A stretch of DNA of 64,000 nucleotides, taken from NCBI RefSeq assembly GCF_030936135.1, contig NC_082620.1, forward strand, positions 3,534,001 through 3,598,000. The letters run 5' to 3'. This DNA comes from Gavia stellata. Taxonomy: Eukaryota > Chordata > Aves > Gaviiformes > Gaviidae. This document shows, piece by piece, positions 37,344 to 52,363 of this stretch. The notes under the pieces are model-generated. The model worked only from the letters and a program-made list of their open reading frames with translations. It was not told the DNA's origin and made no database searches. Positions within the stretch are counted from its first letter, which is position 1, and the number at the start of each line of letters is the position of its first letter. Made by a program: the position numbers and the translations under genes.

Positions 37344-40300
37344 TCAGCAGTGTCCTTTGTCCTTGAGCTGGAATGCTGTTAGCTGGCGCCACCTTCCAAA
37401 GGCCTTAAATAGTAAAGAGGACAAATCAAATGCTCAGGTTATCCCAGAGGGATTGCAGCCACCCTCACAGTACCAGTAAACAAAGCTTTTCCTCTAGCAA
37501 TGGCTATGCCAACTGCCTCACCATTCACTCAGAACCCTTCCCCATAAGTGAAGTGCAGAGTACAAATCAATGTGAGAAAAGGAAGACCAATGCCTTCTCC
37601 GCCCTCTAAATTCAGTACTTGCTCTCAGATTGTTAAAGGAGGATCTAATGCTGCGTGGATCTTTGGGAGGCAGGCAGAGGAGTGAACCAGCTATTTGAGC
37701 TCTAAGGCTTTGCCTGCTCACTCAAACTTATAGCGATTTGCCTGCCCCGGGTGCAAGTCAGCACAGTCCTCCCGCACCAATGTGGAGCCTGTTTCTTCCC
37801 TGAGTGGGCTCTTGAGAGGCGGGGGATTAGTGGATTAACATCTCTGGTAACAGTGGGGAAGGGGGCACACAGGGAAATTAACTGCTGACACAGAGCTTTG
37901 AAAAACACCCAGAGGTGAACCCATATAAAGCTGGAAGCTATTTCCCTTTGTTATGGGCAAGTCCCATTCCCTTCTCCCTAAGCAAGTGCTTTGTGCAAGG
38001 AGAGAGATACAGGGAACACCAGTTGTCCCTTTGGGGTGCTTTTTGGTCCACTGAATTAAAGCAGTGATAAACTCTTACCTGAGATAGTAGGCTCCTGGCT
38101 TCCTCCTCCAAAAAATTCTGCACAACACGGCTTTGCAAATGTCGTCGTCTCCACACCCTCCAGGCCTTTTCTATAAGCCGCTGCTGGTCCTGCCAGGAAA
38201 AGAGGCAGTGCACAGATTAGTTGGGCTCTGGCAGGCAAACTACCTCACTTCCCTCTTGTCCCACCTTGCTTCCAGTTGGTTTCCCAGGTCACTCTTGAAT
38301 GACTTTGCATTGGTAACGAACAAAGCTGACCACTAACAAAACTCTTGCTGATCTACTGCCTCCTGCAAATATTGTGGCTAATTAAGTCACAGTACCCTGG
38401 GGGACAGGACAGTGCCCCTCAGTGCTCTGGCACAGCTCCTCAGTGACTATGGATGCACTCACTATACGTGCGTCATCTTATCCCATGGGAAGGCCAGAGC
38501 ACATCTCAGACACCTCATGCTCATGCTCAGGAAGCCAGACAGAACATGGGTTTGTCCATAGATGGCTAGGGCCTGAGCAGAAGGGGAGGCCAAATGACAG
38601 GCTGTGGACACCAGAGGGATGCATCAGGAACACATATGAGGACACAGATTGTAGTACTTGCTGTGAACTTTTTGCACAGGCTACAGACAATCTAAATAAA
38701 TCACCCTGCCTCAGCTTCCCATCTGTAAGATGGGGCAAAGCACAACTAAATAATGTGGATATGCTAGTTTGCCATGCTGGCATTGCAAAGAGAAAGATGG
38801 AAAAAGTAGCCACAGCAGCAAACTAGGATTTCTGACACACTCTGGAACTTGTTAAATCCCCAGGACTCATCTCCCAGGATGTATGTGAGGCTGCAAGCAG
38901 AGCAGGCTTGCCCAGTAACACCCATCACTGCCACCCTGATGGCAGCACCAGACACTCACCAACACCTGAGCCACCATTACCACCCTGCTGGCTTCTTTCC
39001 ACTGATGCCATCCCCTTGCCAGGCAGCGCAGTCTCCTGTCATGCTGGCACCGGCGAAGTATCACCATGTGATGCCACCACCTCAGATACTTCCTTCTATA
39101 GGCAAGACAGGAAAATAAGCTTTACCAGCCTAACAGCCCTACAAGGGAGTCCTTCCCTGATGGCAGCAGCAAGAGGAAGCCCAAAGCCCTCCGCCCCACC
39201 TACCCAAGCCACTTCTCATCCCGCTCCTTCAAGTCCACCTCTGCTTTGTTCTCCTGGATCCTTGTGTGTGCGGGAGAGGGTCCTACCACACCAGGTCTCT
39301 CTACCAGGTGAGGGAGCAGCAGCCTTTCAGGCCTGTTTTGGTTTCTGTAGATCACCAGCCAGCGGCGAATGGCACTGGGAAAAAGCCCAAGAGGGGCAGG
39401 TGGTGCTGAACCCTTTTCTCTGCCTCTTCCACTTTCTAGGAAAGAAAAGAGGAATCACACAGGAGCTAACCTTGGAGCTAGAGAGGGAGAGATCAGAGCT
39501 TCCATGGGCCCTTAGTCCTTTGGCTCCTGAACACAGAAGCAACCCACAGTCAGAGTTGAACTGCCATGAGCACCTACTCCACAGGGAAATCCCAGTTATC
39601 TGGCTAGCAAACACTACTCCCCTTCCCTCCTCACTCACACTCCCCACATGGCCCCATGAAAGGAAGAGAGGAGGGGGCATCTTCTTACTCATGGACCAAG
39701 ACAGAGACATCTTCCTGCTCTTCCTAGCACCTATCAGGGTACTGCACTGCCGTGAGCACTGGGAAAAGGCAGCTGCTTTTGTCCAGTAGTTGCAGGCCTG
39801 CAAACAGAAAGAACACAGCTGCAGCCACAACACGCACAGACAGCACACACACAAATTAGCCTTAGAGATACATTTATGTTCATATCCCTGCAGGTAGTTT
39901 AATGTGCTAGACCCCAGGCTGGAAACCGCACAGATGAGATCCCAGCAGGACTGACTCAGCCCTTCCAAATCAATCGACCTCTTTGTGGTCTGCTAGCTGC
40001 GAGTCTTTTGAAAAAAGCTGCAACCCTGACAGCTTGCTCTGCTCTGCAGGGACAGTGATTATCCCATCTCATCTTTGAGCAGAGAGAAAGGAGTGCTCTC
40101 GTCTCTCTGGTCAGAATGTCCCCATTCCTTATTGCTCTGCTCCATATGGTTGCTGCAATCAATGCCAGATTATGGTGATGAAGTTGCATGCACAGTCTGC
40201 AAAGAATTTCAAGGCAGGGACTAAGCAATCACCACAAGTCAAACCAGGTTTTTATACAAGCTTTGTCACTGTATCTCAGTGCCTAGTGACCCAACGGAGG

Positions 40301-43300
40301 TCTTCACGAGAGAACAGACAGTTAAGAATGACTGACTCATAGGGACCTTCATCTTTTCTTACCTGTTTTACAGTAGCAACAGATCCTAGGCGCAGGGCTT
40401 GCTGTCCTCTTGAGGCCAATCGCCAGCGGTGACAGGCTTTACCCTGAGAGGGTCCCTGCCACTTGCGGTTTCTCTCTCTCAGCACCCGCTGTTCAGCTGT
40501 CAAGAATTTCACCCTCCACTCAGTAAAGCTCACAACTAGGAGATGGTGCTCTCTGACCCTTTTAAAACAAGAGAGGGCTTCATGCTGCCTCAGTCTACAA
40601 GCAGTGACCTGGGCCCAGGTGACTAGGCACCTGAAAAACAATACAAGCACAGAAAAGCGGCAGATGCCTGAAGTCACATTTCCATGTCAGCACTGAACAG
40701 GCTATAGACCAAATTCCACCTTCTCACCCCACCCTGCAGTGTCACACGTAAGTGGTCAAAGCAAGCAAAAGAGCATTCAACAAGAAAAAAAGCTGTTCCT
40801 ATTATTCCTTCCGCAACTGACATTTATGTATCTTTCTCTGTGTTACTTATTTTTCCAGTGCCTCATCCTTGGGAGGTGTGAATTCAGACTCCTCACTAAA
40901 GTTTCTTTCTGCTAAAAACTTCCCCTTGTTTTACTTCAGATTCCCAGCACTGTTACCTCTCAACTCCTCAAAGCCCAGAAGTATATCTGCTTCCTTCTGA
41001 CCATTTTAGCATTTCCTCCTCTTCAAAGGCCTCTGCAAACTGAATGCAATGCTATACTACATTTTTCCTTTGCCTACAAAGCAAATGCTTTTCCTAGGCT
41101 ACCCTGCCACTACACATAGTGGATCTCTCTCTCTCAAAAAAAAAAAGGAATTAGTCAGTCTTCAATCTCTCTCTGTGCCAGCAGCTGACCTTTAGGATGA
41201 TGCCTGAGGAAGGCTCTTTCTTTATGGGATTAGAATAAAACTGCTAAAATCTCCTTCAGCACAGAACCCAGCAGACTCTGCTTGCTGCAGAATGAGGCTG
41301 GATTTAAGACAGCAGCTTCTGTCAAGATTAGATTTTAATTTTTTCTTGGCTGTCACAAACTAAGGGCCTGCATACATGGGATGTACAACTAGAATAATAC
41401 AGCATCTTTATGGAGACAATTTTATTCCAAAAAAAAAAAATCAATGTCTACAGGAGTTACTATTAACAGCACTGTAAATCTGCACCCACATTAATCTCTC
41501 TGTATCTTGCAGGCTGATGCAGAGGATACTAGTCTTCCCCTGCAACCCCAGAAGCCAATCTGCTTTTAACTCCTGGCTTATCCTTTTGGTTCCTTGTTCC
41601 ACTTGGACTTTCATTATGCAAATCACCCCACTGCACCACAGGGCAGAGGTGTAAATATCCTCTGCCTGGCAGGCTACTCTGAAGATCAAGAGAATCTATT
41701 GCAGGTTATCCTAGCAGGAAAAATGTCCCGCTCAGAAGAGACAGGGCTCAGCCTGTACCATATCCAGGTGAGAAATTAGAAGCGCTCTCTCATCAAAGGA
41801 GAACTCAGAAGGAAGATTAATGGTGGAGACACACTCTACAGGAAGGAGCAACATTAAGGACTTCTCTGAAACACACTTCCCACTAGGGTGCCACCACACA
41901 GACTGATTTGCAGAAGAAAATGCAACTGGGTGGGCTAAGTGCAGAGTCTAAGCATCACAGCCACTAAGGCTTTATTGGGTTTTTAGTTGCTCCTCTGCAG
42001 ATCTTGATATTCTCTCAGCCTGAACCTGCAATTCAAAAGGAAAACTGCTAGGGCCAAACCTGCACTTCTCATGCCTTAAATGAATCCTTGGCATAAATCA
42101 TCTTACTCAATCTTATCCTCCCGAGTTACCTCAAAGAGAACCACCTGAACAATTCCTGGTTCACTGCAGCTGGACAGTTCACTGCATTTCAGGCAGACAG
42201 TAGCCTCACAAAACATAAACCACAAACAAAACAGATTTCAGTGAGAAAGGTACTGAACAACAGCTAAGAGAGAAAAGAAGTTGTTAATGATTGGCAGCAG
42301 ACACCTTGCTCTTCAGATTAAATTCTTGTGTTTTCAGGATCTGCACCATAACATAAGACTCCAAAACATACTACAGCTTCACATATATTGTAACTAAGAC
42401 AGAAATTAATTGAATATCATGGTTCTCCCTTCATAGGCTTTACTGAACATTGCTTTTCTGCAAGAATATATTGAACTCAATTTTTCACATTAGTTTAAAT
42501 GAAAATCAACACGCTGCGTCCAGAATCTAAAAGATACAGAGATCTGATGTTTACAAACCTGAAAGACCTCTGCCCAGTATTTCTTTTGGCAAATACTGAA
42601 TAATTCCAGTGGAAATGGGGCTTTCACTTTTTTAAACTATAGAAAATTGTTTGCATCTCCCTTGCTTAGTTTACAAATACCACACTGCATAACTGAGAGT
42701 GAACAGAAGTTCTAGAAAGAAAAGAGGTTTTGAATGAGAAGAACAAGAGTTCTGTTAGCTGTACTTTCAAACCCCAGCTCTGGTCTGAATACACTGGATT
42801 CTCTGCTACATAAATTGCTCTTCACTCAAAGCTTCCCTCGGAAATGCTTTGAGGGCAGAAAACAAACCTGTGCAGGAGAAGACGTTCCCAGAATAAAGCA
42901 GCATATTTCTGCTTCCTTGCTTGGCAATACCATGTCTGCAGGACCAGCCTCTTCTTCTCCTGGCAGCTATGCTGAGCCCATTGCTGCTGCAGCTCTCTCA
43001 CAGCACGCTTCCCTGTGAGAGAACACAAGAGCTTGCTAAGCTGAGCCCAACAATTTTTTTTTCCATCGCAGAGTCCAGACAAGAGCAGAGAATACCTCTG
43101 CTGCAAATACCAAATGGGACCAGACTTTCTAAGATTTCCTGTCCTCTCTCTTCAGCAGCTGAAGAGAGTTGTAGTTTTTTTGTCTGCAAGGCAGTCAGAC
43201 CTTTTTTTTTTCCCCCCGTCCTTCAACAAGCAAGGGATCACAGATCACTTTCATTCTCATCTGCAAGGCAGTTTTCCATCAAAAATTGGGAGTGTTCCTT

Positions 43301-46300
43301 TCCTGGCACAGTGTAAGTACTTAGCATTTAAAGCACCTGGAATCCCTTGAGGGACAGAATCAGGACTGTTAAGCAGCCCCAAAAGATACACCCTGCTCCC
43401 ACCAAAGCAAAGCCTGACTGTTGGGTCTGAGGAGACATGTTCAAGCTCGGAATGCTGCATCTGAACTCCATTTAACTCCCCAGCTGCTCAAATGCACTGC
43501 TTGAACACTCCTTTGGTAGTGCAGGTAAAGTGAGATCAACCCCTTTTCCAATCAGCTGCCAAAGGAGCATCTTCCCTAGCATAAAGCACCACAAAACAGC
43601 AGGGCTTGTAACCCCAAGGCAGCAGTGACACAGGCACTTACTGACCCCTGGACTAGGCCATTCCAGAGGAGCAGTGCACAGAGTTACAACCAGAAGCGGG
43701 ACTTTCTCCACCCCAACCATTCCCACATCATCCCTCTCCTACAGACAAGTGCTGCTGTAGGATGGGGTAACTCACTTTGCCAGCAGGAATGCCAATGCCA
43801 CAGAGCATCAGCAGTCATCTGGTGAATGTGACACCTGAATCTCTGGTCAGCTTCCACTTTCTGGGCCAGTCTCTTCTTCCACAGGCTGAAAGCCATCTGG
43901 CAGCAATGAACTCGATGTTTTAGGGCTGCTGCTGCTTTTCGGTTCTTATTTTCCACTACCCAGTGGTGCCAGCTGAGAAAGGCTCTGAGAAAGACAAAGG
44001 TCGTTGGACCAACTGTAGGAACAACTCACACCAATTCACACCCTCGTAACTGAAACTTTTAACAATAAACATACACGTGAGGGAGTTTAGAAAACATATC
44101 TGATCTGTTAACATCCTTTCCCTATTAAAAGTCAGGGGAAACAATGGACAGAGCAAGTTGTTGGGAGTAAGGAGTTCTGTCCTGGCTCTGCCAAGCCTGT
44201 TGTTCTCTTCAACTTCTGAATGAGTAGAGAGCAAGGCCAGTTCAGTGGATAGGAAGTTACCAGGGCTTGCTCTGATTTGTGAGGCATCCCATCAAACCAG
44301 ACATTATTGTGTTCAGATATAATAATTTTGAAGCAGGAAAAAAATAATGGGCTGTAAAACTCCCACTGAAGACTAAAAAAGATAGCTAGAGGAAGATTTT
44401 TGTTTTAAAAGCAAGTGTAGAGCTCTCAAAACAGACAGCTTTAGCAAACTTCTGCAAAGCACAATACCTACCGAGACAGCTGAACGAGCCTGCAGTACTG
44501 CTGGGCCTTTACAAGTTGCTGAGTCCGAGCTGACCAGGCAATGAAGTACCTCTGCAGGCAGCATTTCTCTGCTTGGTGCCAGCAACTCTTCACCTCCTTG
44601 TCAGAACTGCAGTCCTGTAATGCAGGAAAGCAAAAAAAGGGCCTTGAACTGCTGCTGTAACACAGTCACTCCACGCAACTCAGCCCTTTCTCCTTGCCAC
44701 TGCGACTTTTGTGATTGCCTAACAACCTGTTACTAACCCACACACACACACCACATGAACACCCAGACACGAGGGTCTAACACATCCCTTTTAAATCCTT
44801 GACACACAGCCAATTGCCAACTCAGCTGGTAAATGGTAGGGAAGAGTTACCCTGAGAAATGCCTCAATCTCCCAAACCTTCTGTCTGAGAGAGAAGAGAG
44901 AAGAACAAAGAGAGAACAGCAGTGAGACCTTCCATATGCTGATATTGAAACCCAAAGGCTCTTCGCTAAATTGGGCTACGCAGAGAACACTTGCACATTT
45001 ACATGCATTGCACCACTTTTTAGCCTCACCTCTTCCCATGTAGAGTAACTGGTGAGAGGCTGGGCATTATTGTCTGGACTCTGCAGTGCCAAAGACTGGA
45101 ACTGACCTCCCACAAACCAATTTCTTCTGCAAGACAAAAGTGTCGGGAGAAAAGGGAAAGAAAGAAGATGATAAAGTATCCGGAAGGATGCTGTGAGATG
45201 ACATGAGGGACTACCCAGAAGGAAGGAATTCAGCCAGACCAAACAAGGGGCCACACTGCTACTGGCATCCCAAGAAACCAGTATCCAACTCACCCAGATC
45301 CAGTACTCCGTCGAGGAAAGGAGGCCTGCAAGTACAGATCCCCACCCAGCTCAGAAGGCAGCTCTGCGCATTGGTGTAGTTGCAGGAAAGAACTGTAATA
45401 CGGCATGTGTGTGACATCCTCAGCAGTCAGAACAGAGGAGAAGCTCTGCTGGCTGCTGTCACTAAAACTGTATTCCTGCAGGTATGGAGGGAAGAACATG
45501 CTGTGAGGTAAGCGTCCTCGCAATGGAATCATTCAGCTAACAGTTCTGACCATGCCATTTACTCCTCTTTTTGGCAAGGATTCAGGGAAATTCAAGATGC
45601 ATCCAAAGGAACTGCAGGCTAGGAAGGACAGCTCTGGAGTGCACGCACATACATGATGGGAAAGGTATTTCTATACTAGTCTGGGAATGGTTAAACCCAA
45701 AACAACCAGTAATCAAACACAGCAAACCATCACTGAGACAGTGCATATGCCCATTTTCCCTTTTCTCAGTGATGAAGTTCTTTGTACCTCATCCCCTCCA
45801 CCTTGCAGCCACAAACAGGAGCAAGTGCACAACAGAACTTCACTAGCTAAGCACCTCCCCATATGATGAACAAGGAAGGGCACAGAGAGAAGTGACTTCA
45901 TGATTTCCAATCATATTTAAACTCCAGGACCCTACAGACTCAGTGCTCTTCAGGCCTAAATACTAAGCACAGTTTGCTGATGACAGTATCTTGCACGTTG
46001 AACAAGAAATTTTGCCCTGAAAAATCCCAGCAATTTAATACCTCAGAGCAGTCTGGATGTATCAAGACCTCCTCACCTTTTCCAATGAGCTTTGAGAGCC
46101 CAGAGTAGCTGGAGCACTGCTGTCAAAGCCGGAAGATGTTGAGAGGTCCTCAGGAAACATCATAGCAAGAGGTTCTTCATAGACAGTCCTGTGCAAGTGC
46201 TTAGGACTTTGTTCAATTGCCTTCAGCATGAGACACTTTTGGTGCCATAATTTCAGAGCTTTTCTGAGTCTACACTGCTCCAAAGCCTGAGAGAAAGAAC

Positions 46301-49300
46301 TGAGACAGAATATATTGAGACAGCAAAGTGACTGAAAAGGGATACCAGAGGGGGACACTAGTACAGACATGACAGATGATAGATGGTAAAAGGGGTTCTT
46401 CCAGAAGGACCAGAAAGTCAAGTGGGCACTACTAATGAGGGCAGGGCTCCAGGAACTGGCTCTTCTTCACTCACTCAGCTCTGTGATGCTCGCACAGCCT
46501 TGCTTTCCACAGCAGATATACTCTCTGGAGCTTCACCTTTTGGCAGAAGTCATCAAGAGAGCAGCCTGTTTTCTCAGGAAAACATCTCTCTACAGTCCAC
46601 AATGGCTGATCTTCATGCCTCTTTGTCGCAGTCTTGTCAGCTCCAGAGTTTATAACGGGTCCTTAACCAGTTTCAGAGAGTGACAAGAGACAACGTTTGT
46701 CAAAAGGCATTCCTAAGAAACTCAGCCCAGCCCTCACACTGCTTTCCTATCAGCAAGGTTTAAGACTTTCTGCTAGGTTTATGAAGCAGAGCAACAAATC
46801 TCCCTGTAGCTTCACTGACACATCCAGAACAACTAATCCTCTACCCACTCTGGTTTGTTAATACTATGCATCACCTGAGCGTCTCTGTTACCAGGCTGTT
46901 TTCAGCTGTTTTTCACCATTCAAGAAGATGAGGAAGGAGCCTAAACACCTCCAAATCTTAGATTCTGCACAGGCCCCAAGCTGCTCACCATAATGCTGCC
47001 TCCATCGTAGGAGGAAGAAGTTCACCATTGCCTGCTTATCACCTTCTCTGACATGCAGCATCTGAACCCACTGCTGGAAGTATTTCCTCAGTGATACTGC
47101 TCTGAGATGGGCCATGTTGCGCCTGTAAAGCGCCTTCTGCTCAACAGCCTCCTTCCATGCACTGAAGCACCTGAGAAAACCAAAGGAAAATAAATCCACA
47201 TAGAAAACCATGTGAAGAGCATACAAGCTTGTGTCTCCTCCTGAGACTGGGTTTAGTTCAGGAAGGACAGACAGAAGCTGTCATCTTCTGAGCTTCTACT
47301 CATTTATTTCATTAAAAAGCCACTGTCCTGCTTAGAGCACAGCAGCACAGGGGGTGCTCTCAGGTTTGGTCTTTTAGGACATCAAAGGTCAGGACCAAAA
47401 AGCTTTGGCAGTGCACAGGAGGCAAGTCATAATGTCTCTGGCCACAGTAGTTCCTTTTCAAGTTTTTATCTCTACTTTCATCTTTATTAACTCCTAAAAC
47501 AAAAGAATAGATGGCTTTAAGATGGAACAACACATCACTGTCTGGGTTGGCTCTGTCATTCCTTGGACTTTCACAGTGAACAGACTTTTCACATGAAAAA
47601 GAGACCTCATCAACTTACCGAGAGACCAAGTTTCTTTGGATCCGAGTTGTCAGTGCTAAAATCTGCTCCATTTCCAAGCATCGGGAACGCCACATCCAGA
47701 AAATGCTTCTTAGCCGCTTCTTTTCCAGCAGAGCACGGACTTCAGAAAGTCTGGCTTCCTCTTTGCTCAGCAACTCCTTCTGCAGGCGCCACAGTCTGAA
47801 AGCTGCTGTGTTGCAGGGCAGGAAGAGATTGACAGGAAGAAAAATAACTTAGAAGAACTTCAAACAACTTAGTGTCACATAGCAAACATTCCCTGGCTGA
47901 ACTCCAGCTGTCTGAGAAAGGGCACTTAAGGGAGACAGCTCACATTGCTGGAGCAAGGGCATCTGCTGCACCTGAATTAATACAAGGAACAAGGCAAAAG
48001 GTGCATGACACCGCAAGTGGGCCACCCTCCACCATCACAGACACTGGCTCAGCTATTTGCAGGATCAGGTTCTGAAAGAGTCTGGTCAAAACAACTAGTC
48101 ACAAACCAAGAAACATGGTGAAACAGTGACTACCTCCAAGCTGTTCCAAAGCTACGGAACGTGTGCTTACCAGCTAGCCGTCTCATATCTCTGATTGCTT
48201 GAGCTCTCCAGCAGAACTCATCTCCTTTCTGCCTACGATGAAGCTGTGTCCACAGTCCTCCCTCCACCCTGAAAGAGTCACAAAATGATGCTTTTAACAT
48301 CCATCTGTCCAAAGAGGCACTCAGAGAACAGAATCCAGAGCCTTCCTTGTCCCTAGGTAGCTCTCGCATTTTGCCTGGACTTGTTCTTCTGCCTTCAGAA
48401 TCAGAAGGCACAACAAAAGTTTTTTCTTTTGACACCTCTACCGTCCTGCTAGAGACTGTAGTATTGCCTCATTCCAATCTCAGTTATGCCTGCATCACAT
48501 ATGCAGGTGACAGGTGAACTCAAGAAATGGTACAGGAGTATTTCTGTCAGACAGTCAAATCAGACTGAAAACACTAGTGCACAGAAGCTCTGGAAAAGGA
48601 TCGTTTAGTTCTTAAAACTAAGTTACTAATTCTTGCAGTGCTTATCTGCAGCAATACATCCAAGGACCTGGAAACAAGTTTCCCACCATTTGAGAAAAAT
48701 TTCTCCCTGTGTTTGTAAACTTCCACTTGTCCAAGATAACAGAAAAAGAATGCTCTCAGCTTACCTACAAGCCTGCTCAGCTTCCTTTGAGTATCCTACT
48801 GTAAGCTGGTGCTGAGCTGAGGTTGTCACAGTTGCTAATCTTCCTACGCCAAAAAACCCCGTTGATGAACTTTGGTTATAAAAACATGGCTCAGACTGTT
48901 GAGCTTCCTTCTTGCTTCGTTTTGCCACAGCTTCCTTCCACTGAAGGAGAAACCACATGATTAGAACAAACTGCAGGCAGAGTATCAGTATCAGGGTCCA
49001 CATCACTGAATTTCACACAGGGTACCCCTTCCTCTTCCCTGTCCAAATAGGATTTCTGCCTTCTCTGACTGCACAACAGTAAACTCATGGCACCACTTCT
49101 ACTGTCCCTAGCCCATCCTCACCCTGTAGAAGCTGACAGCTAGCAGAGCTTCGGCATGTCTCTGCTGGGCTACCTCCAGCTGCATCCTCCTCTGGTGCAC
49201 AGCCCACTGCAAAGTACCAAGGCCCTTCCGAAGCAGTTGCTGTCTGTAAAGCTGCCTGGCTGCAGCCCTTTTCTGGAGGACGTGTCCCCTCCAGGCTTGG

Positions 49301-51800
49301 AAGCACTTAGTTAGCATTTGTCTGTCACACAAGTGCTGGAAACTTAAAGAGAAAAAACAAAAGTGAGCTCCAGTTAACAGAAAGGGAAGTTAAACACAGC
49401 CAGGAGGTGGCAATCAGAGTTCAGCCATCAAGCTGAAAAGAGGTATTTCAAATCATTCTCTCTGAAGAGTGAAAAACGTGCAGTCTCACACCAGATTAAG
49501 GTATTACTGTTGCTAAATTGGTAGCAATCTCACACACATCTTATTCACAGGTCACAAATCTGAATTGCATCTCAGGGATAAGCCCACTTCTCGATCTTCG
49601 CTAACTATGCGGTGAGCATGCTGGAATTTGCGGCACTGAAAAGTAGCATACATAGTACCAATGCTTCTTCATTGCTAGCAACAACCAAGGTTGAATTTAG
49701 AAGCTAGATTTTAAAAGATACAGAAATTATTTTTTGGGCATGCTCCATTCTAGATGGCAACCCTTTGAAAAGAAATGGATGCGGCCCCTGAGCCAGCCAT
49801 AGCAGAATAATGTAGGTTAAGTCCTAAAACCAAATGTTCCCAGGAACATGGCTCCTTAGCCACTTTCCAGCAGTTCTCCTCCCCTGTTAACTACAAGCGT
49901 ACTCACACATAAACACAGAGTCTTTTTACCTTTGCTCATTCATCTTCAACGACCAGAAACTGTTCTCCGAGACCTGCAAACAGACAAAAAACAGTAACTC
50001 AGGTGATTATTCACACTACTCTGTTGAAGAATTTGTCTGTGCCCAGCATGGCAAGTCATTTTGGATGGAGATCAGAACAGTGCTGCCTCAGGGCAGTGTA
50101 TTATGTCAGATGCCTTTGACACTGCCCCCACCATCGCTCTGTGAATACTCTTACATACTTCAGACATGGAAAAGCACAACAAAACTGAAATCTCAGGGCC
50201 CTGCAACTACACACAGAGTAAAAAGCAGTTTAATGCTTTCCCTCTGCATGTAGATCCAGAGAATATAAACAGGTGTTTACGTTCCCAAGAACAACCAAGT
50301 TAACAAGCTGGTCAGAAAGATGCCTATGTTGGGATGGAGCAGGACCATAAGAGAGAAGATTCTGGCCATTCAGTGCCAGAAAAAAACTATAGGACAAGCA
50401 CCCCCATCACTGTTGTACTTCAACTCTGCACCTCTAGCAAGAAGCAGAAACAAGCACAAGTAGTATCTGTGAACAGGGATGCTACACAGCGAGCACACCC
50501 TCACCTCTCTGGACACAGTTTCCTGTGTCTGGCTCCCTTCTTCACAGCACCATGGTTCTTTGGCACTCCTCTCCACAGAAGGTTCTTCAGACTGGTCAAG
50601 ATTGGTATCAGCTTCCCAATTCCTCCAGCTGCTTCGCTGGGAGTATTTGTTTCTCTTTCCTTCTCTGCTCACATTCATACAATCTATGTCAGAATATTCA
50701 CCAAAGCCTTCTTCAACCTGAATACCGAAAGGGCTGGACTGGCTGCTGCCCACCACAGCCATTCTTCTGCCTGCTCGTGATCTAGAGTCACATATTTCTT
50801 CTGATTCTTTGCTGGACTTAACATGAGGTTCAGAGTTTTTGACTTCTACAGATTTAATACTAAGCTGCTGGACTGGTCTAAACTCTTTACCTGCAGGAGA
50901 AGTGACTCTCATGCACACTTCCCTTGGAGTCCCATACATGGCTACACCAACATTCATCTGAGCCCCCAACAAATCTGTCTCCAATGACACCTGCAGACCC
51001 TGTGGATACAGACTGGCTGGAGGGTCTTTCTTCCAAGATACAGCACATGGGGATGCCCCATTAGATGTCTCTTCTCCTTTAAAAACCTTTTCAGGGGAAT
51101 GACTTTCTATGTCAATATAAAGACTACCAGTTTCCAGAGTTGGCTTTGCCTGGGACTGGCATCTGAAATAAGGGGAGCAATTGTAGGAGGAATCTGCTGC
51201 TGTATCTACCAGCCTGCCAGCGCCCACCCCAGAAGAGAGGGTTTCTGGCTGGGTGTCACCTGAAATTTTGGTTCTCCATGTGTTCAAGTCAATGTATCCA
51301 TGTCTGTGAGAGACAGAGAGAGGTTCTGCACGACTGAAGTCCATTGTCGCTGCACCAAGGCTCCAGTCTTTAGCAAATGGGACACCCCATTTCAATCTTG
51401 CCTGAGCAGCACTGGTCTTTACTCCAGCTAGCTGTTCTCCTGTGCTCAGCATAGTAGGTGATGAATCATCAGGAGCAAAGCACAAACTGCCACTGACTGG
51501 AGAAGACTTGGGCTCCAGAGGGAGGGAGCCCCATATCCCCATCAAAGCAGTTTCCTGCTTAAGCCTCTGGATTGAATAGCACAAGCTAGCAGAAATCCGT
51601 GAGGATTGCAAAAGAGACTGAAGGGACTCCAAGCTAGATGGATCAAGATCCCCCAAGGTCAGAGCTGAACTACAACAAGCGTTCACACTTTCACTTGAGC
51701 TCCTTGAAGAAGGACACACCACCAATTCGTGCTTAAGAGGGGAATCCACAGTACGAGATGACAAACGTGCATTGACCAGTGAAGCGTTCATAGGATCCAT
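37344..51800 (-). CDS. C1orf167: C1orf167 orthologue, SFI1-like Trp-repeat protein
   Basis: Named by position between MTHFR and AGTRAP; function unknown. Exons, 5' to 3': 51800-50505, 49973-49930, 49342-49123, 48940-48765, 48268-48171, 47805-47619, 47170-46989, 46661-46537, 46286-46077, 45475-45294, 45126-45030, 44880-44851, 44614-44472, 43984-43776, 43012-42868, 40630-40363, 39797-39689, 39374-39305, 39095-38960, 38189-38079, 37403-37344. GT-AG sites and phases close throughout, totalling 4098 nt (1365 codons plus stop). The first exon (432 residues) is Ser-rich and probably disordered. From 49342 on, nearly every exon carries Trp-centred units like those of SFI1 centrin-binding repeats: KCFQAWRGHVLQKR, CFSAWKEAVEQK, KALKLWHQKCLML, MAFSLWKKRLAQK, RVWRRRHLQSR, AFGRWRQLTAFQ. 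The ATG at 51800 is chosen because an in-frame TAG lies 24 nt upstream. Exons 46661-46537 and 44880-44851 are less certain. Within 39374-39305 the imposed frame meets a TGA, so the gene could be disrupted. Confidence 0.75.
38690..38765 (+). mobile_element. MIR-like SINE fragment
   Basis: The segment CTGCCTCAGCTTCCCATCTG, continuing as TAAGATGGGG, matches the conserved region of the old tRNA-derived SINE MIR, in forward orientation. It is short and diverged. It lies in a C1orf167 intron between 38189 and 38960. Confidence 0.5.
50505..51800 (-). other. C1orf167: C1orf167 large Ser-rich exon, main open part
   Basis: This single open frame of 432 codons runs from MDPMNASLVNARLSSRTVDS to TVSRE, ending at a good donor (GAG then GTGAGG). 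It is rich in Ser, Glu and Pro with no predicted fold. It contains short acidic and Ser clusters such as SSRSSSESVNACCSS. The large-exon-then-small-repeat-exons layout suggests a disordered head on a helical repeat tail. The exon continues upstream at DNA level to an acceptor at 52363, where two in-frame stops interrupt it. Confidence 0.7.
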
Positions 51801-51824: not shown

Positions 51825-52363
51825 CTATTGTTTTTCCACTGGATAATCACTATTCTTGTTCCTACTTTCTAAACAGCGATGGCAAGCAGTGTGTATGGAG
51901 CAGCTACCAGCTGCCTTTGCTTTCTGATGATGTAGTTGAGAAAAGTGAATACTCTCACTCCTTCTCCCTTCTAAACTACAAGCCTCAAGGCATGAGTGTC
52001 TCTGAGGGAGATTCACAGCAGGGAGCACTGACAAAGCAAGATGGGGAATCCTATGAGCCACACACTTAGAGCTGTGCTGGTGCAGCCTGGAGCAGAGATT
52101 ATTCTGCTGCAGGACACAGGAACTGGAGAACTGACTGCTGGTGTCCCAGAACGGCTGAGAAGGGCAGGAGGGATTAGTCTGTCTCAGCCTGGGATCTCTC
52201 TTCCCAGCTGACCGAGGTGCGGTACACAGCCGGCCTCATTCTGCTGTCTGGCTGGGAGTTACACTGAATGCCACAGCCTCAAGACAGTGATGGGAAATGT
52301 CTACTCGACTTCTAGTGCCCAAATACAGATCAACATTCACGTTCTTCTGAATGTTTCTTTGCT
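51825..52363 (-). pseudogene. Upstream part of the C1orf167 large exon, interrupted by stops
   Basis: After a convincing acceptor (TTTTTCTTCAG, exon edge 52363) the frame that joins the upstream exon is protein-like: NVNVDLYLGTRSRVDISHHC, then on to TPSQTAE. It meets a TGA at 52236-52238, then stays open for another 136 codons, including LPQRHSCLEACSLEGRRSES, to a TAG at 51825-51827. It then continues straight into MDPMNASL in the same frame. Either translation now starts at 51800, or this allele or assembly carries two nonsense changes, or the splicing differs from my model. No good internal intron signals remove both stops. Confidence 0.5.

Follow-up and report, generated by a model that had tools for sequence, protein, structure and literature searches.

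What kind of protein does C1orf167 encode? Centrins are core proteins of the centriole, and the Trp-centered repeats of C1orf167 had been likened, in a sequence-only reading of the locus, to the centrin-binding repeats of SFI1. We followed up this suggestion in a stretch of 64,000 nucleotides from Gavia stellata (contig NC_082620.1, positions 3,534,001 to 3,598,000; hereafter the window, in which all positions without a contig name are given). C1orf167 is an intact vertebrate gene, and our analysis establishes its structure, its repeat pattern, and the similarity of that pattern to SFI1 repeats. The C1orf167 repeats are, in all likelihood, related to SFI1-type repeats. On these sequence grounds, the protein is probably a further SFI1-type, centrin-binding scaffold.

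C1orf167 lies on the minus strand, where its coding span, 51800-37344, is divided into 20 coding exons. We built the gene model by reading the minus strand and splicing exons at splice sites. All 19 introns are GT-AG, and the product is a single continuous frame of 1434 amino acids with a terminal stop. Two boundaries were fixed by the frame, the exon 3 donor at 49123 and the exon 9 acceptor, which was placed at 46299 because the frame is kept there. The spliced repeat part contains no stop in the chosen frame, compared with 51 and 45 stops in the two alternative frames. Thus, the exons are read in the frame that the sequence-only reading had assumed, and all 10 of the peptide strings it quoted are present in the spliced protein. 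It had also described about 19 small exons in 37344..49342. An array of small exons does occupy that span, but it consists of 18 exons (3 to 20), with the remaining two of the 20 lying further upstream.

The repeat pattern is found in residues 433-1434, which contain 43 Trp. Positional enrichment was judged against 5000 shuffles in which these Trp were held in place. Leu occurs at position −7 of 18 of the 43 (shuffle mean 4.85; no shuffle as high), Phe or Leu at −3 of 17 (mean 6.17; one shuffle as high), and Lys or Arg at +1 of 15 (mean 7.46; 18 shuffles as high). At 11 Trp, at least three of five consensus positions are occupied, versus 0.7 expected and in none of the 5000 shuffles. The core L-x3-F/L-x2-W-K/R is present in many copies, and the pattern fits both the centrin-binding consensus of SFI1 repeats given in the available text of PMC5112337, Ax7LLx3F/Lx2WK/R, and the L-x3-F/L-x2-W triad that the available sections of PMC8622359 call the 8-4-1 centrin motif. 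One unit, running from residue 505 to W521, matches Ax7LLx3FxxWK exactly and spans the junction of exons 3 and 4. The same positional enrichment was looked for among the eight Trp of the N-terminal 432 residues, and none was found there.

Counting as a unit any Trp for which positions −7 and −3 are both hydrophobic, we find about 16 SFI1-type repeats, or 18 with two looser ones. All exons are on the minus strand and are assigned from the gene model and the unit listing. The first part of the array begins in exon 3 (49123..49342), with unit W464 and the start of the exact-consensus unit, whose Trp, W521, is the first codon of exon 4 (48765..48940). It continues in exon 6 (47619..47805; W617 and W650), exon 7 (46989..47170; W679, W708, and W730), exon 8 (46475..46661; W786), and exon 9 (46077..46299; W815, followed by a Ser-rich linker). 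Linker sequence makes up exon 10 (45294..45475), which has no Trp, and exon 11 (45030..45126), which has no unit. Units resume in exon 12 (44472..44614; W991), exon 13 (43776..43984; W1017 and the looser W1047), and exon 15 (40363..40630; W1135 and W1168). Exon 17 (39204..39435) carries a weak unit, W1281, within a Pro/Gly-rich linker, and is followed by exon 18 (38960..39095; W1339), exon 19 (38079..38189; the looser W1391), and the last exon, 20 (37344..37403), with W1420 and the stop codon. Exons 2 (49930..49973), 5 (48171..48268), 14 (42868..43012), and 16 (39689..39797) are placed by the gene model. The statement that nearly every exon between 49342 and 37344 carries a unit was therefore too broad, holding for 12 of the 18 exons in that span.

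The spacing of the units shows a similar departure from what had been described. Seven of the 15 gaps between the 16 units measure 22-33 residues, and the other eight measure 56-176. Because of these eight long gaps, the array is best described as broken. Some of the breaks are linkers rich in Ser or in Pro/Gly, at residues 831-975 and 1236-1330. The first of these (exons 9-11, 46299-45030 on the minus strand) is a Ser-rich, repeat-free segment that splits the array midway. By our own division the repeats fall into four blocks, at residues 447-540, 580-830, 976-1235, and 1331-1434, and in these author-chosen blocks Pro and Gly together make up 1.6-4.3% of residues versus 12.5% in the N-terminal part.

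To which known proteins are these repeats similar? A profile of the 16 C1orf167 repeats (A1) was searched against 177,635 distinct sequences of the Protein Data Bank (PDB) and gave two matches. The top match was the SFI1 peptide of entry 2K2I (17.3 bits, E 0.035), and the second was Sarcospan (E 0.087). Table 2 of PMC8622359 lists the 2K2I peptide as repeat R17 of human SFI1 with centrin 2. Two control profiles, A3 and A4, retained the Trp, −3, and −7 columns and had the remaining columns shuffled; the 2K2I SFI1 peptide was absent from the PDB matches of both. None of 100 further column-shuffled controls equaled the real score, either on this peptide or on the SFI1 array of the same genome described below. 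A plain phmmer search of the PDB with the repeat part returned a single, unrelated match at E 0.3. The same profile was scored on 14 published centrin-binding peptides, each against 500 shuffles. Four scored clearly, namely human SFI1 R17 (17.3 bits), POC5-3 (10.4), human SFI1 R18 (9.5), and yeast ScSFI1 R19 (6.9), with no more than 3 of 500 shuffles equaling any of these scores. The XPC peptide scored 10.1 bits when reversed versus 1.0 forward, which fits the opposite orientation of XPC in centrin.

The repeats were also compared with the SFI1 array encoded elsewhere in the G. stellata genome. Because human SFI1 lies tail to tail with PISD, we located PISD first, by Pfam, and fetched 90 kb around it. 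All four A1 matches with E < 1 in these 90 kb lie on the plus strand at C21:4,923,667-4,938,976. The background for the same profile was a best E of 1.1 in 47 kb of the window outside C1orf167 and of 2.6 in 20 kb of C13. We then modeled the gene with a finder that ignores the repeat motif. The C1orf167 coding sequence served to train the codon scores, in which the Trp codon was given a value of zero, and the splice weights came from general knowledge. A strict run gave 9 exons, and a looser run gave 20, of which the first three were dropped as unlike the array. This procedure placed Trp-repeat exons at C21:4924151-4940368, a partial SFI1 model, since the profile matches at 4923667 and 4931713 fall outside it. 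A profile of 14 units from this model found only the 2K2I SFI1 peptide in the PDB at E ≤ 10 (17.9 bits, E 0.022), which supports identification of the gene as SFI1.

The two arrays recognize each other. The SFI1 profile gave 72.0 summed positive domain bits on C1orf167, where 1000 Trp-fixed shuffles reached at most 11.9; in the other direction, the C1orf167 profile gave 58.2 on SFI1 (shuffle maximum 14.4). HMMER whole-sequence scores without composition correction were 118.6 and 118.8 bits, against shuffle maxima of 24.9 and 46.1, and were equaled by 0 of 1000 shuffles each. The profile-profile comparison that the sequence-only reading had proposed as a check, made with hhalign, returned a probability of 94% for C1orf167 versus SFI1 units, both unit sets having been chosen mostly by the same triad. 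Agreement extends beyond that triad. Over 30 columns that played no part in the choice of units, the two profiles agreed better than in all 2000 shuffles, and a profile of 42 unselected C1orf167 Trp segments scored 30.8 summed bits on SFI1, as high as in none of 500 shuffles. With the SFI1 peptide as top PDB match, reciprocal profile matches, and negative column-shuffled controls, the likeness to SFI1 centrin-binding repeats first noticed from the sequence alone is upheld.

These results also bear on whether the Trp repeats might be a structural helical repeat that has no EF-hand partner and serves self-association or microtubule or axoneme packing. We consider this improbable. It would sit comfortably with the papers searched, in which binding data for C1orf167 were not found, but conservation falls on the very positions that form the centrin-contact triad, and the columns outside the triad agree with SFI1 as well. 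Gene structure offers a further parallel. Of the 19 introns of C1orf167, 8 lie 12-16 nt ahead of the next Trp codon, as do 5 of 16 in the SFI1 model, where about 6% would be expected. The range of 12-16 nt was first read off C1orf167, so only the SFI1 value counts as a test; its binomial p of 0.002 rests on an incomplete gene model. This shared intron placement hints at common descent of C1orf167 and SFI1.

A Pfam scan of the spliced C1orf167 protein gave no match to Sfi1 (PF08457) and one sub-threshold chance match. The Pfam Sfi1 model likewise misses the SFI1 array of the same genome, queried as a 547-amino-acid sequence that lacks the residues encoded by split codons and the final exon of the prediction. 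Over the whole G. stellata genome (1.32 Gb, 1185 contigs) this model found nothing, and 14 control genomes were likewise silent. When the repeat part itself was searched against the whole genome, with the best candidates scored, 18 of 19 matches were the exons of C1orf167. The remaining match, at C13:4469360 (E 1.33), was rejected as chance, because each of its three forward frames contains stops and the repeat profile lends it no support. At that sensitivity, C1orf167 appears to be single copy.

Several observations weigh against an SFI1-type, centrin-binding array. The E value of the 2K2I match is modest for a PDB search, and 10 of the 14 published centrin-binding peptides gave no clear forward score with A1. 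KAR1, whose Trp comes first as in XPC, gave no clear reversed score either (3.4 bits). The repeat part, searched against the whole genome at E ≤ 10 with the best candidates scored, did not recover the SFI1 gene. Among the consensus positions, Ala at −16 is not clearly enriched (7 of 43; shuffle mean 3.82; 377 of 5000 shuffles as high), nor is Leu at −8 (8 of 43; mean 4.75; 443 of 5000). The hydrophobic moment at 100 degrees is not significant (202 of 2000 shuffles as high). Unit spacing is irregular in C1orf167, whereas the SFI1 units of the same genome are spaced exactly 33 residues apart in 9 of 13 gaps. Finally, with composition correction, the reciprocal HMMER whole-sequence scores drop to 3.5 and −17.1 bits and are not significant (35 and 62 of 1000 shuffles).

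The weak Ala at −16 and the irregular spacing would both suit an array that descended from or converged on SFI1-type repeats and now binds another EF-hand protein, such as calmodulin or a ciliary EF-hand protein, in place of centrin. Many EF-hand proteins bind targets that are anchored by a Trp. We nonetheless regard this as unlikely. The IQ-like pattern [ILV]Q...[RK] has no match in the 1434 residues, leaving the IQxxxR mark of calmodulin binders absent, and the top scorers among the 14 centrin peptides, a comparison set that holds no calmodulin targets, are SFI1 and POC5 sites. The low composition-corrected scores could similarly be taken to indicate that the pattern arose by chance in a protein that is rich in Trp, prone to form helices, or decaying. 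The listing of human C1orf167 among balancing-selection candidates in the available part of PMC9162324 could also reflect relaxed constraint. Such a chance origin is extremely unlikely, however, given that the frame is maintained over 19 introns, that no shuffle in 5000 equaled the count of Leu at −7, and that the summed domain and uncorrected whole-sequence scores were equaled by none of 1000 shuffles.

It is useful to contrast C1orf167 with known systems. SFI1, both in the human peptides and in the gene of the same genome, shares with it Leu at −7, Phe or Leu at −3, Trp, and Lys or Arg at +1. Both genes have many small exons with introns often 12-16 nt before a Trp codon, and a PDB search with either profile picks out the SFI1 peptide of 2K2I. 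Unlike SFI1, C1orf167 has irregular spacing, a weak Ala at −16, blocks separated by linkers, and an extended N-terminal part rich in Ser. A further difference is His at −13, found in 8 of 14 SFI1 units and in only 1 of the 16 units of C1orf167. For yeast SFI1, the available texts give a repeat periodicity of 33 residues (PMC5112337) and gaps of 0-12 residues between repeats (PMC8622359). POC5 resembles C1orf167 in its third centrin-binding site, which scores well with the C1orf167 profile, but only three sites are listed for it in Table 2 of PMC8622359, and the other two gave no match and 1.2 bits. The ciliate SFR proteins, as described in the available text of PMC5112337 for Tetrahymena Sfr1, provide a precedent for SFI1 repeats beyond a single SFI1, located at basal bodies; Sfr1 differs in having three repeats, and it is likened here by description.

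We infer the helical form, centrin binding, location, and tissue role of C1orf167 from this likeness to SFI1. The protein would begin with a Ser-rich part and continue with about 16 SFI1-type repeats, each most likely a helical stretch that displays the 8-4-1 triad of Leu(−7), Phe/Leu(−3), and Trp(0). The triad would dock in the hydrophobic pocket of the centrin C-terminal lobe, so that C1orf167 could string several centrins along a filament. This filament would probably lie at the centriole or basal body, most likely in testis. High testis expression of C1orf167 is reported in one sentence of PMC9162324. In an excerpt of PMC10784340, a study of hypogonadism, varicocele, and azoospermia, a table without functional data includes the gene among those carrying mutations in three groups of patients. 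A more specific proposal, which we consider quite unlikely, is that C1orf167 is an ancient SFI1 paralogue and a second vertebrate SFI1-type centrin filament, specialized for male germ cells. In that role it could hold centrin at the centrioles of sperm once SFI1 and the centrin of the distal tip have gone, a loss that the available text of PMC12674131 describes in round spermatids.

In the literature searched, no paper was found that mentions C1orf167 together with centrin, and an earlier SFI1-like annotation of the gene may exist, since subscription papers and protein databases lay outside that search. C1orf167 and SFI1 co-occur in the portions of text searched only as separate entries on different loci. 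The same literature yielded no binding, location, or loss-of-function data on C1orf167, and guessed orthologue gene names led to nothing attributable to it. Vertebrate centriole targets with listed centrin-binding sites in Table 2 of PMC8622359 are SFI1 and POC5. If the predicted scaffold is real, this little-studied gene would join the SFI1-type centrin scaffolds. As a further centrin carrier, said to be testis-high in the available part of PMC9162324, it would provide a concrete handle on the architecture of the sperm centriole. It would also raise the question of whether coding variants credited to the much-studied MTHFR-CLCN6 region might act through a different gene.

The name C1orf167 is assigned by gene neighborhood. 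Pfam matches in the flanks place the gene beside MTHFR, between it and AGTRAP, which is the gene order around human C1orf167. The flanking matches comprise MTHFR with its C-terminal domain (plus strand), a voltage-gated CLC channel (minus strand), and AGTRAP (minus strand). At the opposite end of the array from its stop codon, exon 1 (50505..51800, minus strand) encodes the 432 Ser-rich, repeat-free residues of the N-terminal part, and it is uncertain which codon starts translation. Exon 1 is immediately preceded, in the same frame, by an open stretch of 136 codons (51825-52235, minus strand), closed by a single TAG. This stretch may be 5′ untranslated region, may be spliced out, or may encode N-terminal residues in a frame that is broken in this individual or species. 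Farther away, between the CLC-channel gene (minus strand) and MTHFR (plus strand), the segment 24000-25500 has long open frames that overlap across the two strands and is GC-rich by eye, as expected if it is a shared head-to-head promoter of these two genes.

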